From: Lysobacteraceae bacterium
Lineage (GTDB): Bacteria; Bdellovibrionota; UBA1018; JAGTJX01
Direction: 5' to 3'
Assembly: GCA_023657465.1 (NCBI GenBank)
Contig: JAGTJX010000003.1
Span: 561,889-625,888 of the forward strand
DNA: 64,000 nt
Part shown: in pieces, positions 12,017-20,950 of the stretch
Layout of the letters: each line of letters starts with the position of its first letter
Numbering within the stretch: the stretch's first letter is position 1
The notes under the pieces: generated by a model
Database searches by the model: none
Seen by the model: the letters and a program-made list of their open reading frames with translations, nothing else
Told to the model about the DNA's origin: nothing
Position numbers and translations under genes: made by a program

Positions 12017-12415
12017 TTATTGTTTAGATTTTTCTATTTTAACAAAAGACTCAATTTCAGCTGTTCTTACAAAACTAGCTCCACTGACAACCCATTCATC
12101 ATTTGCAGCACTGAGTGAGCTGTCTACCGCACATTTAGAGCCCAAAGATTTAACTGGAATTTTTTTGAACCAATTTTCTCTTTTTCTGTAAATAAACAAT
12201 TCGTCTTTGATGCTCACGATAGACCGCTCATCGCAAACCAGTGCATTACTAGAAACAATGTTCATTGTTTTTAAAGCCGCATCTGATAGTTGGATTCCTT
12301 TTTCATAATCAGCTTGTTTGACTGATTTGTCGATGTGAACACTTGCAGAAGGGACCCATACACTTGAATGACCCATCATGATTGTAGATAAAAACAAATT
12401 AGTCCAAAGATTCAT
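12017..12415 (-). CDS. Small exported protein, reduced RND periplasmic-adaptor-like
   Basis: About 132 residues from ATG 12415 (MNLWTNLFLSTIMMGHSSV, a probable signal peptide); the frame is open to 12481. The segment KGIQLSDAALKTMNIV resembles the piece that opens the beta-barrel/membrane-proximal part of CusB/CzcB-type adaptors, and FIYRKRENWFKKIPVKSL fits a beta-barrel strand pair. The coiled-coil hairpin and lipoyl domains of a normal adaptor (350-400 residues) are absent. Its position between the outer-membrane-factor gene (17-base overlap) and czcA (2 bases) is where the adaptor belongs. Either a minimal adaptor or a remnant; family assignment is tentative. Confidence 0.6.
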   Translation of the reverse strand: MNLWTNLFLSTIMMGHSSVWVPSASVHIDKSVKQADYEKGIQLSDAALKTMNIVSSNALVCDERSIVSIKDELFIYRKRENWFKKIPVKSLGSKCAVDSSLSAANDEWVVSGASFVRTAEIESFVKIEKSKQ

Positions 12416-15801: not shown

Positions 15802-16860
15802 CTAGGCGGAACGAGTTAGATTCCGTTCATAGAAAACTTTAATTGATTGAAGTTGAGAGGACTCCTTCAATAGAGCAATTGCTATCTCGCCTTTTGGCAT
15901 TCTAGAGCGAGGCACGATTCTGACTTCTCCTCCAGATCTTCCTACGATTTCAACTAAATCATCTAACAAATCATCAGACCTTAAAAATTCTGAAAACGAA
16001 TGCTTCTTCACCTCACCTGTTCGTTGACTGACCTCAGCCCACACATGATCATCTTGAGAGACAACCAAGCATTCAATCTGACCTCTTACTGCAAACTCAG
16101 CTATTTCGTTAATATTATTGATCAGACGATTCTGTTTTTTGCCTACAGTCAGAATATCTCTGACTTTGATTAAGTCTTCTTCTTGAATGGACCTGAGTAA
16201 AAAACGTCTACACTCCAACTGAAGCTGTAAGTCACTTTGATCCTCTGCAAACTCCGAGAGAACAACAACTTTTTTACTTTTAAGGATGTGAGCTATAATT
16301 TGGTTTTCTATAACATCCTTCCTTGCAGAGACAATCAGCATGGATTCTGGGTCTTTAACTTTTCTATTTAACAAATCCTCTACTTGATTGAAGTGACTAA
16401 CTTCAGCAATCAACTTCAATCCATTGAGTCTGCCCCGGTAAAGCTTGATTGATGAGCGATCGAACCTCAGCAAGAAATGCTTTTTTTCAATCTCAGCCCA
16501 TCTCACCACAGGTTTAATATGAAAACTCTTTGCTACAATTGCGGTTGGGAGTGTGTGAACTCCTATCGGTAAAGACCAGAAAAAATTTTCTGAACAAAAC
16601 AAAGCAACAGATACTGCTTTTGAATTAAATGCAAAATCAGCAAATTGATACTGAGATACTCTTTTTAAGAACACACTCGCATCTTGATCGCTCATGCTGA
16701 GCAAAAGTTTCTTTCTTACAGTTTTTAGAAGCGAATCGAGCACTTCTTTCTCTTGAGCAACATCATCATTCATTGAAATTTTAGGAATATATATGGAAAC
16801 ACAAGGGGCCATCTCCACTTGAAAAAGATCCAACAAAGATTTTATTTTTAATTTATTCAT
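15802..16860 (-). CDS. baeRF-like protein (bacterial archaeo-eukaryotic release-factor family)
   Basis: 352 residues, soluble. It opens CVSIYIPKISM and continues with FFWSLPIGVHTLPTAIVAKS and KPVVRWAE, the layout of the N-terminal domain of bacterial aeRF1-like proteins (family 3). A middle part ends in the VRDILTVGKKQNRLINNINE region and a C-terminal eL30-like domain contains GQIECLVVSQDDHVWAEV and GEVRIVPRSRMP. Proteins of this family are thought to act on stalled or hibernating ribosomes but lack a proven mechanism. Third gene of an operon headed by an HPF-like gene, which fits a ribosome-rescue or hibernation role. It overlaps the preceding gene by four bases. Confidence 0.75.
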   Translation of the reverse strand: MNKLKIKSLLDLFQVEMAPCVSIYIPKISMNDDVAQEKEVLDSLLKTVRKKLLLSMSDQDASVFLKRVSQYQFADFAFNSKAVSVALFCSENFFWSLPIGVHTLPTAIVAKSFHIKPVVRWAEIEKKHFLLRFDRSSIKLYRGRLNGLKLIAEVSHFNQVEDLLNRKVKDPESMLIVSARKDVIENQIIAHILKSKKVVVLSEFAEDQSDLQLQLECRRFLLRSIQEEDLIKVRDILTVGKKQNRLINNINEIAEFAVRGQIECLVVSQDDHVWAEVSQRTGEVKKHSFSEFLRSDDLLDDLVEIVGRSGGEVRIVPRSRMPKGEIAIALLKESSQLQSIKVFYERNLTRSA

Positions 16861-17138
16861 TGTATTTCTCCTATATTGATTTGAATACCACCAGCTGACA
16901 TTCTGAAAGATGAATTAATCTGAGTTTGAGAATTCACTCCATTGTAATGCCGATAATGTTCGCGAGCATCCATATGTATCAACTTAAACTGACTCTCTAA
17001 AGCAATCTTTGGAGCTTCCACTGCAGAACTTGGCATGCGATTGGTTTGATCATTCTGACTAGCAGAAAGTGACACCATCATTCCAAAAGTTGATAGATAA
17101 GCTGCCAAAACAATTAATGGCCATGTATAGTTTCTCAT
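16857..17138 (-). CDS. Small exported or membrane-anchored protein between HPF-like and baeRF-like genes
   Basis: 93 residues. The first 27 residues (MRNYTWPLIVLAAYLSTFGM onward) form a signal peptide or anchor, followed by a polar domain rich in Asn, Gln, Ser and His and ending in the beta-like SSFRMSAGGIQINIGEIQ. Its start and stop each overlap a neighbour by four bases (ATGA-type), so it is translationally coupled to both and is unlikely to be spurious. No family recognised. Confidence 0.7.
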   Translation of the reverse strand: MRNYTWPLIVLAAYLSTFGMMVSLSASQNDQTNRMPSSAVEAPKIALESQFKLIHMDAREHYRHYNGVNSQTQINSSFRMSAGGIQINIGEIQ

Positions 17139-17458
17139 ACAAAAGCCTCCATACTTTTTTTGTACTTTTTCGTAACGACTGCTGTCATTCTTAGGAATGC
17201 CGTTCGAATTGCTTTACCAAAAGTTAAGTCTTTGTGACTTAAGAATATTCTTCCGTTACGTTTCGTTTTAACGATGAGATGACAACTGTACTCATCTCTG
17301 CCGGGTTGTGTATCCGAATTAATCACTTTAAGGATAGCTTCAATCCCAAGCACTTGATCTTCAGGAATATAAGAAACAACTTCTTCAGAATATCGATTCA
17401 CTTCATCCTGAATCGCTTGAGTTTTTTTAAAATTAGAACAAAATAAACGAATACGCAT
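17135..17458 (-). CDS. HPF/RaiA-like ribosome hibernation factor
   Basis: About 107 residues. The start at 17458 is set by a strong GGAGG four bases upstream; ten in-frame codons precede it without a ribosome-binding site. The pattern of the short HPF fold is visible: an N-terminal strand and helix with alternating hydrophobics, EDQVLGIEAILKVIN, EYSCHLIVKTKRNGRIFLSH and a final helix FGKAIRTAFLRMTAVVTKKY that carries the basic face. Such proteins bind the decoding centre and inactivate ribosomes. Divergence from standard HPF is considerable, so the call is moderate. First gene of the three-gene operon. Confidence 0.65.
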   Translation of the reverse strand: MRIRLFCSNFKKTQAIQDEVNRYSEEVVSYIPEDQVLGIEAILKVINSDTQPGRDEYSCHLIVKTKRNGRIFLSHKDLTFGKAIRTAFLRMTAVVTKKYKKSMEAFV

Positions 17459-17471
17459 AGAGACCTCCAAA

Positions 17472-17583
17472 CATTGGTCACTCACCAATGAATTAGAGTC
17501 TCAGCTCGCACGATGCGTACTCATACCGATAGTAGTGATACTATGTCTTGACGATATGAGAGTTTCAGTACTAATTACTGAAA
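17472..17583 (-). promoter_or_regulatory. Leader with three hairpins upstream of the HPF-like operon
   Basis: Three perfect inverted repeats lie in the 200-base gap: CATTGGT/ACCAATG at 17472-17490 (7-bp stem, loop of 5), immediately upstream of the GGAGG ribosome-binding site; ATAGTA/TACTAT at 17529-17544 (loop GTGA); and TTTCAGTA/TACTGAAA at 17563-17583 (loop of 5). The last could also end LysR-gene transcription. The one next to the ribosome-binding site is placed to affect translation. Function is inferred. Confidence 0.5.
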
Positions 17584-17668
17584 AGCTTACTCCCTCTTTG
17601 TTACTTACTCAGTATCGTCTATTTCACTTAATAACAAAAACAGATAATAATTATTAGATCTATAGTTT

Positions 17669-18586
17669 TTAACGATGATTTAAGAAACTCTGAATCAATC
17701 CTTTTATCAATGGATCTGGCTTACTACGCTTGAGTGTAGTTACATAAAATATTTCATTGACTCTATCCAGTTTGAAACAAATCTCAAGTTCTTTTGATTG
17801 TATTTCGTTTTGAACAACTATTTCCGGAACAAACGCTAGTCCTTTACCTGAAATTGCAAAAAATCGCATCAAAGCAGGGTCTTCAATCTCTCCGATTATA
17901 TTTGGCTTAATGGATTCAGATTCAATCAAATAATCAATCTGACTACGAGTCCGATGAGAATAGGTAGGTAAAAACAAAGGAATGCCATTGATAGTTTTTA
18001 TATTTTTTTTATCAATTTTTTTTACTAAGTTCTTAGCTCCAACTACACAAATTGGAGCAACGAGCAGTTCCTGGGTTTGGAGTTGAATTTTCTGATTATG
18101 AATCAATTGTGTATCAGTGAGAACTAAGTCAACTTGATAAGTTTCAAGCATGAGCGCAAGATCACTTAAACTTCCTTGCAAAACTCTTACTGAAACACTC
18201 TTATCATTGAGAGACTGCTTTAAAAACTGGAACTGCAAGTTTTTAGAAAGACTCACTTGAGACCCTATTCGTATGATTTTTCTTTTTTGAGGAGTCTCTC
18301 TATTTTTCAAATGTGAAAATAACTCTTGGCCTGACTTGAAAATTTGCTCACAATATTCAAATGTAATGCTTCCTGTTTGATTCAAAATAAGATTTTTTTT
18401 GACACGGTCAAATAACGGCTCGCCGATTCTCTGTTCAAGGATCTTTAGCTGTTCACTGAGCGTTGATTGAGATAATCGTAGTTTTTTTGAGGCGCCCGTA
18501 ACACTGCCCTCTTTCACTATCATCCAAAAATAAAAAAGATGATGATAGTTAATCCAATCCACTAAAGAATAACTCCGCTGATCCAC
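17669..18586 (-). CDS. LysR-type regulator, NhaR-like
   Basis: 305 residues, start GTG at 18586 inside the last codons of the upstream gene (25-base overlap). The N-terminal winged helix reads INYHHLFYFWMIVKEGSVTG followed by KLRLSQSTLSEQLKILEQRIG; the YHHLFYFW opening is typical of the NhaR branch, which responds to Na+ or envelope stress in other bacteria. The remainder is a substrate-binding-type effector domain. It is transcribed behind a barrel protein gene instead of divergently from its target, so its regulon is not evident. Confidence 0.88.
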   Translation of the reverse strand: MDQRSYSLVDWINYHHLFYFWMIVKEGSVTGASKKLRLSQSTLSEQLKILEQRIGEPLFDRVKKNLILNQTGSITFEYCEQIFKSGQELFSHLKNRETPQKRKIIRIGSQVSLSKNLQFQFLKQSLNDKSVSVRVLQGSLSDLALMLETYQVDLVLTDTQLIHNQKIQLQTQELLVAPICVVGAKNLVKKIDKKNIKTINGIPLFLPTYSHRTRSQIDYLIESESIKPNIIGEIEDPALMRFFAISGKGLAFVPEIVVQNEIQSKELEICFKLDRVNEIFYVTTLKRSKPDPLIKGLIQSFLNHR

Positions 18587-19446: not shown

Positions 19447-20196
19447 TTATTTTTTACCCCAAACCCTATCCAACTTACGACGAATCATTGTCATTGCAAG
19501 AGCTAGAACAAGAGATGAAACCAAGGGAATCCAAAGAGCAGCAAACTCAAGTCTCTTCGTTTCAATGACTGAAAAAACTGATCCAATTGCAAATGAAATG
19601 AAAATTGAAAGTCGAGTAAGATTTGTTTTTTTAGTTAATTCAAGCTCTTCACTTTTAAGACTTCCATGCAATATTCTAGAGAGATCAGTTCCAATATCTG
19701 TGCTGATTCCTGTCATATGCGTCGTTCTAATAGCGCCACCTGTGAGAACTGCGATGCATGCGTTTTGAAGTCCGCACAAAAACGACAGAAGATACATGAA
19801 AACGAAATCATGCCAAACCAGTAGTCCTTCTCCGAAGGCTCCAAAAGCACCATGGAAACCGAGATAAAGCATCAGCGCCAATCCTGCAGGTATCGCAAAT
19901 AGGACTAAATCATATTTTGGTGCTAGGCCCTGATCGAGCCTAGCACTTGTAAATACTCCGCTGATATATGATCCGAAGATAAAGGCTAGAGGAAAACCCA
20001 GAAGCTCAAAATCATACCAGATACTATTTCGACCTACTGCCATTCCGATCTGAGTTCCCACACCAGTAACGTGAGACACAAATGAGCCAAAGGCTAGAAA
20101 TCCAAATGCGTTGAGAAATCCTGCCTGAAATCCTAATGCCGACCAAATAGCGATACGAGGTGTTTCTAAGAATTGTTTTCTATCGAGCCTGTACAT
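19447..20196 (-). CDS. DUF1275 (YoaK-type) membrane protein, copy 2
   Basis: 249 residues, a close paralogue of the protein at 8138-8884: the blocks GFQAGFLNAFGFLAFGSFVS, GVGTQIGMAVG and GEGLLVWHDFVFMYLLSF recur almost unchanged. Inner-membrane protein with about six hydrophobic segments, function unknown. It begins 24 bases after the carbonic anhydrase stop, so both are likely co-transcribed. Confidence 0.85.
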   Translation of the reverse strand: MYRLDRKQFLETPRIAIWSALGFQAGFLNAFGFLAFGSFVSHVTGVGTQIGMAVGRNSIWYDFELLGFPLAFIFGSYISGVFTSARLDQGLAPKYDLVLFAIPAGLALMLYLGFHGAFGAFGEGLLVWHDFVFMYLLSFLCGLQNACIAVLTGGAIRTTHMTGISTDIGTDLSRILHGSLKSEELELTKKTNLTRLSIFISFAIGSVFSVIETKRLEFAALWIPLVSSLVLALAMTMIRRKLDRVWGKK

Positions 20197-20219: not shown

Positions 20220-20843
20220 TTAGGATAGAAAATTTACTTTACCTGTAGTGATGTCTAAAATTGCACCTACCACAGATATTTCATTTTTCTCGATGAGACC
20301 TCTCACAATTGAACTCTGTTCAACAATGAGACTCATGCTTCTCTTCACATTCTCTGCTGCTGCCAACTCAACTTGTTCTGCATCAGAAACCTTATTATTG
20401 TTGTTAATTGATTTAATCACAGCAGGTCTAATTCTACCGACCAACTCTTCCAGACTCGCTGAAGGCAATGTTTTATCTGGATTTTTGACACTCTGAAGAG
20501 TTGCGTTCACCGCTCCACACTTAGAGTGACCCATGACTACAATGATGGATGATCCGAAATTAGCCGCGGCAAACTCGATACTCGCTAACAAGCTCGGAGC
20601 AACAACGTTTCCAGCAACACGAACAACGAATAGATCACCCAACCCTTGATCGAAAATCATCTCGACAGGACTTCTTGAGTCAGAACAGGTAAGAACGATT
20701 GCAAAAGGCTTTTGACCCTTTTCTGCTAATTCAGCCATTTTTTTCTGACTGAGCAGGGATTCAACAGACATCACTCCAGATGTAAACCTGGCGTTACCTG
20801 CTTTTAGTTTGTCGAATGATTCAGTAATTTTTGATGTTTTCAT
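20220..20843 (-). CDS. can: Beta-class carbonic anhydrase
   Basis: About 207 residues from ATG 20843, chosen because GGAGG sits ten bases upstream; the frame is open further to 20906. Zinc ligands and catalytic dyad are visible: Cys53, Asp55 and Arg57 in CSDSR, then His106 and Cys109 in GHSKCGAVNA. Interconverts CO2 and bicarbonate in the cytoplasm. Divergent from a small winged-helix regulator with repeated ATTCATGC motifs in the shared control region, and followed by a DUF1275 gene, a pairing that hints at bicarbonate or pH homeostasis. Confidence 0.92.
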   Translation of the reverse strand: MKTSKITESFDKLKAGNARFTSGVMSVESLLSQKKMAELAEKGQKPFAIVLTCSDSRSPVEMIFDQGLGDLFVVRVAGNVVAPSLLASIEFAAANFGSSIIVVMGHSKCGAVNATLQSVKNPDKTLPSASLEELVGRIRPAVIKSINNNNKVSDAEQVELAAAENVKRSMSLIVEQSSIVRGLIEKNEISVVGAILDITTGKVNFLS

Positions 20844-20898
20844 AATTTCTATCCTCCGGTTGTTTTTCTTAAAGACGATCCTAGCACTGAAACAAGAT

Positions 20899-20950
20899 AC
20901 ATGCAATATAATTCATGCTTTACTATTCATGCTATTTATGTCATGATGTA
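20899..20950. promoter_or_regulatory. Repeated ATTCATGC-type motifs in the carbonic anhydrase/regulator control region
   Basis: ATTCATGCT occurs at 20911-20919 and again at 20925-20933 (14-base period), with related ACATGCAAT just upstream (about 20900) and GTCATGATG downstream. The block fills the space between the divergent carbonic anhydrase and winged-helix genes and is a plausible operator for the latter. No experimental basis. Confidence 0.4.

Follow-up and report, generated by a model that had tools for sequence, protein, structure and literature searches.

The window, by which we mean the whole 64,000-nucleotide stretch of DNA that was analysed, contains three closely packed genes on the minus strand. 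The first encodes a short HPF/RaiA-type protein of 107 aa (17135..17458), the second a 93-aa protein with an N-terminal membrane span or signal peptide, no cysteine and no known family (16857..17138), and the third a Balon/baeRF-family protein of 352 aa (15802..16860). The initial annotation had described three genes joined by four-base overlaps, and the window's list of open reading frames (ORFs) agrees with it on every coordinate and on both junctions, the HPF gene overlapping the middle gene at 17135-17138 and the middle gene overlapping the Balon-like gene at 16857-16860. SD-like sites precede all three starts (GGAGG before 17458 and before 17138, GGAG before 16860). The mechanical ORF of the HPF gene begins at an upstream TTG, at 17488; the start is best placed at the ATG at 17458, which GGAGG precedes. 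Upstream of the operon and on the same strand lies a gene for an NhaR-like LysR-type regulator (17669..18586, minus strand), recognized by PRK11062, and 20 bp after its stop codon the PWM score picks out a candidate operator, ATTATCTGTTTTTGTTATT (17630..17648, minus strand). The LysR ORF itself overlaps an upstream 290-aa ORF by 25 bases (18562-18586). Scans for sigma-70 promoters and for terminators gave no excess over shuffles.

The product of 17135..17458 had been called HPF-like, with structure prediction proposed as the check, and the fold is indeed present. Predicted with its relatives by AF2 (mean pLDDT 86.8), the protein has its secondary structure elements in the order E-H-E-E-E-H, i.e. 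the beta-alpha-beta-beta-beta-alpha fold of short-type HPF/RaiA (S30AE). The model has 33 Foldseek matches at E<=0.001, with entry titles that fit HPF/RaiA/YfiA/pY-type chains. RaiA chain 8rd8_D, from a P. urativorans ribosome structure that also contains Balon, ranks fourth by Foldseek (E 1.4e-6) and heads the VIA list (Z 16.0, with an rmsd of 2.2 across 104 residues), and as modelled the 107-aa protein has the HPF/RaiA fold. The sequence matches PF02482 (S30AE) with E 0.0092 and 17.1 bits, under the gathering score of 23.7; among six relatives, L028, L031, L032, L037 and L041 pass this profile and L025 has no match. A family profile of the HPF-like proteins matches 8rd8_D with E 7.5e-7. The computed pI is basic, at 9.2, for the ORF taken from the TTG start. 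In the window's own genome, which is 96% complete, a PF02482 search has no match at E<=0.001 and our HPF profile A1 has one, the operon's HPF-like gene, making its product the only HPF candidate that sequence searches found there.

The baeRF-like identity of the third protein is likewise upheld. It matches NF052287 (AOC03_06830 family ribosome hibernation factor) with E 6.5e-18 and 65.3 bits, the best stretch being residues 206-325 of 352, and does not reach the equivalog cut-off of 330 bits. The tag AOC03_06830 we take to be that of the Psychrobacter Balon. Profile A2, built from nine proteins (the window's Balon-like protein and eight relatives), matches the solved Balon chain 8rd8_B with E 1.3e-19 over profile positions 6-352 of 369, so that the homology extends along the three-domain length; a phmmer search with just the window protein gives no PDB chain at E<=10. 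By inspection the 352-aa protein contains no GGQ and no NIKS string. In a tree it sits on a very long branch, with AU p values of 0.60 and 0.29 for alternative placements. By sequence it is a remote Balon homologue of the aeRF1 superfamily, and we do not file it as an equivalog.

The codon usage of the middle gene is coding-like: its score is reached by 0.6% of the out-of-frame stretches sampled from window genes, and among sampled in-frame stretches it stands at the 16th percentile. The protein has an N-terminal hydrophobic stretch (KD15 2.09, best span residues 8-26, second best 0.36) and zero cysteines. It has no Pfam match over the cut-off and no NCBIfam match; weak Pfam matches to CBM_20 and NtrZ are both under the cut-off and were taken as chance. 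The 93-aa ORF looks coding and exported. The initial annotation had called it a small signal-peptide protein of no known family, and both the hydrophobic N-terminus and the lack of a family match hold, export itself being a prediction. Co-occurrence of the three families in other genomes, which had been proposed as a check, did not appear: the middle protein has no homologue at E<=0.001 in either the 117 or the 368 genomes of the phylum that were searched. The best other match, at E 0.0024, covers 24 residues of a 993-aa frame with a stop and was also taken as chance.

To place the operon among its relatives, we used a survey of 368 genomes of Bdellovibrionota, with profile matches counted at E<=0.001. 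The HPF profile matches in 117 of the 368 and the Balon profile in 100. In 31 of the 368, the window's included, a Balon gene lies on the same strand within 1.5 kb of an HPF gene; 34 HPF genes are so paired, 24 of them in Balon-first order and 10 in HPF-first order, that of the window. An intact middle gene is found in 11/34 pairs: nine belong to the family described below, one is at L037 and one is that of the window. In 23 of the other 33 pairs the middle gene is missing or no longer intact (13 Balon-first pairs have nothing there, one keeps a remnant and 9 are HPF-first), so that relatives with the other two genes do literally lack the middle one, an outcome that the initial annotation had named as counting against its proposal. 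A same-strand NhaR-like LysR gene lies upstream in 25 of the 35 HPF–Balon pairs read in fetched loci, window included; this total is the 34 pairs plus one extra with a Balon remnant at L141, and 3 of the 10 pairs without LysR have <500 bp upstream in their stretch. The remnant (L141:1507-1617) is 36 codons long and lies between LysR and HPF.

In the relatives, the slot between Balon and HPF is repeatedly occupied by a family for which we coin the label TMF: one membrane span, followed by a Cys pair usually 29 apart. TMF is in this slot at 10/24 Balon-first loci (nine by HMM plus L037), with a remnant at an eleventh. The first HMM was built from eight in-slot members and found the ninth, at L106. 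The L037 protein is not matched by the HMM; its Cys spacings of 29, 8 and 5 are the same as those of the four-Cys TMF members, and hhalign aligns both cysteines (probability 7.5, E 0.0047). The remnant, between HPF and Balon in G342 (L113), spans 27 codons and apparently retains the start and the last Cys region. TMF proteins have a single hydrophobic span whose flanking charges fit an N-in/C-out orientation; the C-terminal tail is predicted to be periplasmic and is probably disulfide-bonded. The Cys pair is 29 apart in 17/18 members in fetched loci, as compared with 19 of 265 other similar-sized ORFs that contain at least two Cys. For 12 members compared with Pfam, the lowest E-value is 0.016, two members tested against NCBIfam have no match at E<=0.01, and structure prediction gives a mean pLDDT of 52.9. 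Across the survey there are 25 TMF places in 23/368 genomes, of which 19 are strong and six are weak matches of partial length (E 1.5e-5 to 8.3e-4); apart from the G342 remnant, our counts use only the 19. Thirteen of the 19 adjoin HPF and/or Balon, including HPF alone in G279, G299 and G318 and Balon alone in G311 C18. Six are stand-alone (G276, G317, G047, G262, G297 and G270).

We considered whether the window's middle protein is a distant TMF member and rejected this: it has no match to the TMF HMM at E<=10, an hhalign probability of 0.2 and no Cys. Since neither sequence nor cysteines match, it would be at best a functional replacement of TMF. An export-type N-terminus is present in 11/11 intact middle genes and is reached by 6 of 21 control small operonic ORFs, the hydrophobicity threshold being that of the lowest of the 11. 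This common N-terminus is weak evidence by itself because the 11 genes represent no more than two families, that of TMF and that of the window gene. The claim of the window's middle gene to the module is made from its position, its overlaps, its export-type N-terminus and a promoter region shared with the other genes, all read from sequence. That a ribosome module can include an envelope component, as the initial annotation proposed, holds in some relatives through TMF, but no relative surveyed shares the middle gene seen in the window.

The window's LysR protein matches PRK11062 NhaR with E 1.9e-36, under its equivalog cut-off. In the relatives, the gap between LysR and the first gene contains a 19-bp motif, TTTATC[TC]ATTTTAACAATT, which is placed 24 bp past the LysR stop codon in 23/33 gaps and at another position in most of the rest. 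At a threshold of at least 14 of 19 positions it is present in 31/33 of these gaps versus 32/990 shuffled gaps. Consensus and PWM were derived from these same 33 gaps, and therefore the tests that count are sites outside the training set. For module genes that have no LysR next to them on the same strand, a PWM score of 31.0 is found before a Balon gene that also lacks an adjacent HPF (L134), before an HPF gene that also lacks an adjacent Balon (L135), and at L120 and L179. Further sites score 21.5 (L038), 21.1 (L110), 19.5 (L124), 15.7 (L033), 15.1 (the second L106 pair), 13.0 (L130, L131 and L123), 7.6 (L181) and 7.4 (L030), and the low scorers are L129 (5.2), L182 (3.5), L183 (1.7), L027 (-7.5), L180 (-10.4) and L139 (-21.1). 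Genes of the other Balon type are without the motif (L029 2.3, L034 -9.4, L035 -9.5, L036 1.8), as is L039 (2.2).

Stand-alone TMF genes offer a second set of sites outside the training gaps. At L173-L177 the PWM scores are 30.6, 11.6, 7.2, 12.7 and -0.8, and 0, 0, 4, 10 and 366 of 2000 dinucleotide shuffles, respectively, score as high; L177, the last of these, has no motif site. A score of at least 7 is thus reached by 4 of the 5 testable stand-alone TMF genes versus 1 of 152 control genes, with the G270 copy outside the test, as the stretch near its contig end (L178) holds no TMF ORF. The TMF gene of L142 has no good site (PWM 1.9). Two scans with the exact pattern covered 46 genomes, nearly all chosen for holding module genes. 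The first found 15 sites in 12/16 genomes, 13 of them before module genes, and 1 site for the reversed pattern; the second found 23 sites in 15/30 genomes, 14 of them at the module (one ~300 bp before a LysR gene), and 0 reversed-pattern sites. Away from module genes lie 2 of the 15 sites in the first scan and 9 of the 23 in the second; three of these eleven have an ORF of >250 aa starting within 70 bp downstream, and eight show nothing convincing.

Several genes outside the module carry the motif or lie close to it. A DUF1275 gene (L206:666-1457) has a perfect copy 61 bp upstream, and a DUF1275 gene is found near the operon in the window (19447-20196); DUF1275 may be another member of the regulon. 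Two more ORFs have the exact motif upstream: one of 256 aa whose start resembles a signal peptide (L188:683-1453; motif at 65 bp) and one of 286 aa that is hydrophobic in its N-terminal region (L223:1538-2398; motif at 37 bp). They may be additional envelope genes of the regulon, or the motif may stand there by chance. In L025, L026, L028, L113 and L119, a weaker second copy, TTATC[GAT]ATTTGA, is present on the opposite strand beside the LysR start, where it perhaps serves autoregulation or a divergent gene.

By its sequence, the window's copy of the motif is degenerate and is placed as in the relatives. The site in the LysR–HPF gap, ATTATCTGTTTTTGTTATT, ranks third by PWM score among all window positions; when the 250 bp upstream of the HPF start are dinucleotide-shuffled, 4 of 2000 shuffles reach its score. 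A search for the exact pattern in the window's own genome gives 0 sites. The best PWM hit in the window, at 12029(+) with a score of 18.3, falls close to where a small minus-strand ORF ends; no module gene follows it, and it has no plausible target.

Our preferred reading, which we consider rather probable, is that of a stress- or stationary-phase hibernation operon under a local NhaR-like LysR regulator, with the middle protein as the envelope arm of the regulon. Its starting points are the gene order, the predicted HPF fold, the Balon homology, the envelope gene that recurs at the slot in relatives and the shared upstream motif. The NhaR-like LysR protein would bind the motif upstream of the operon. 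The short HPF/RaiA-type protein would then sit in the small-subunit mRNA/tRNA path of an idle 70S ribosome, and the Balon-type protein would occupy the A site of the same ribosome, a joint occupancy modelled on RaiA and Balon in Psychrobacter. Made at the same time as HPF and Balon, the middle protein would be exported and act at or outside the inner membrane instead of binding the ribosome. The envelope slot would be filled by single-span TMF in the relatives and by an unrelated, cysteine-free protein in the window's genome. That some distant relatives have a different envelope gene in the slot, behind what is apparently the same switch, hints at a common control of ribosome sleep and the cell surface. 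A bolder form of this reading, which we put forward only tentatively and judge doubtful, would have Bdellovibrionota couple hibernation to the state of the envelope: one LysR and an almost module-specific operator would switch on HPF, Balon and a membrane protein with a periplasmic disulfide hairpin that senses or protects the envelope in dormancy, the window's lineage having swapped in an unrelated exported protein.

Neighbours of the module include a Na+/H+ antiporter (L025), TerC (L028), genes of the Sbt_1 bicarbonate transporter and sulfate-permease families (L028:4464-5414 and L028:2770-4302) and carbonic anhydrase (L137:2704-3459, L140:3047-3700 and window 20220-20906). Such neighbouring genes, among which the bicarbonate-type ones recur, hint at sodium, pH or bicarbonate as the starting signal.

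Three other accounts of the locus have to be weighed against this one. The window's middle gene could be an unrelated insertion or orphan, with only HPF and Balon of consequence. The absence of homologues in the 368 genomes and of any TMF similarity would fit such a history, as would the 23/33 other pairs that manage without an intact middle gene and the 6/21 controls that share this kind of N-terminus. Against it are the four-base overlaps on both sides, the SD site and the coding-like codon use, and a different envelope family occupies the same slot in some relatives, with the motif even when it stands alone; we regard this account as unlikely, with a real share of probability nonetheless. 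Alternatively, the Balon-like protein might be a rescue or release factor acting on stalled ribosomes and not a hibernation factor, as its place in the aeRF1 superfamily, via Balon homology, would allow. Against this are the missing GGQ and NIKS strings, the linkage of the family to HPF at 34 same-strand loci and the finding, in passages of PMC10901736, that mycobacterial Balon homologues inhibit translation in vitro, and we think it very improbable.

The remaining account is that the middle protein and TMF tether hibernating ribosomes to the inner membrane in the manner of E. coli YqjD/ElaB/YgaM, membrane proteins that are implicated in hibernation in the part of PMC10502375 that bears on them. 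In 9/12 aligned TMF members, a basic N-tail of 24-29 residues (6-9 K+R, 1-2 D+E) precedes the span and could serve such a function, and genes matching DUF883_C occur near some other Balon genes (L036:10934-11206, over the Pfam cut-off, and L029:8848-9135, just below it). Those two genes lie near the other Balon type, in Bdellovibrio-like genomes. In the window, L037, L103, L109 and L110, however, just 5-12 residues precede the span, which leaves little for ribosome binding, and both invariant TMF cysteines are in the predicted periplasmic tail. Moreover, the window protein has no match to DUF883 (YqjD/ElaB) at E<=10, and its hydrophobic span is N-terminal, not a C-terminal anchor. Tethering appears improbable to us, and we return to the hibernation operon with an envelope arm: in the window organism, a relative of predatory bacteria, a probable cell-envelope gene is set between two genes whose products probably send ribosomes into dormancy.

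The initial annotation had called the arrangement one not known to it. This is so in part: linkage of HPF to baeRF is already published (PMC6514570, PMC10901736), but the open-access literature, among the matches listed, contains no report of the TMF family, of the motif or of this arrangement. What is new here is TMF between Balon and HPF in other Bdellovibrionota, together with the 19-bp motif; HPF–Balon adjacency is not. The motif gives a handle on the signal that starts hibernation in a phylum of predatory bacteria and their relatives. As described in parts of Helena-Bueno et al. 2024 (PMC10901736), HPF/RaiA beside Balon is the most frequent Balon neighbourhood, and Balon operons carry other stress genes, some of them envelope or membrane genes by name (OsmB, OsmY, HdeD and EmrB); the word "membrane" is absent from its main text. 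Our operon shares with those operons the adjacent Balon-family and HPF/RaiA genes, and differs in its LysR and shared upstream motif and, in the relatives, in the Cys-pair membrane protein between the two genes. Sections of Burroughs and Aravind 2019 (PMC6514570) link baeRF-1 families to HPF and predict them to be A-site inhibitors. The HPF linkage is common to those neighbourhoods and ours, whereas neither "membrane" nor "LysR" occurs anywhere in the main text of that paper. According to the relevant part of the review PMC10502375, ribosome hibernation has so far been connected with no membrane-bound proteins other than YqjD, ElaB and YgaM. Another membrane family, not related to these and associated with Balon and HPF through gene order and the shared motif, would make it testable why hibernation needs a membrane partner. 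Like TMF and the window protein, these E. coli proteins of stationary phase are small membrane proteins; in the review's account, however, they are anchored by their C-terminal tails, with the N-terminus of YqjD on the 30S subunit, whereas the proteins described here have their span at the N-terminus and a tail predicted to lie outside.
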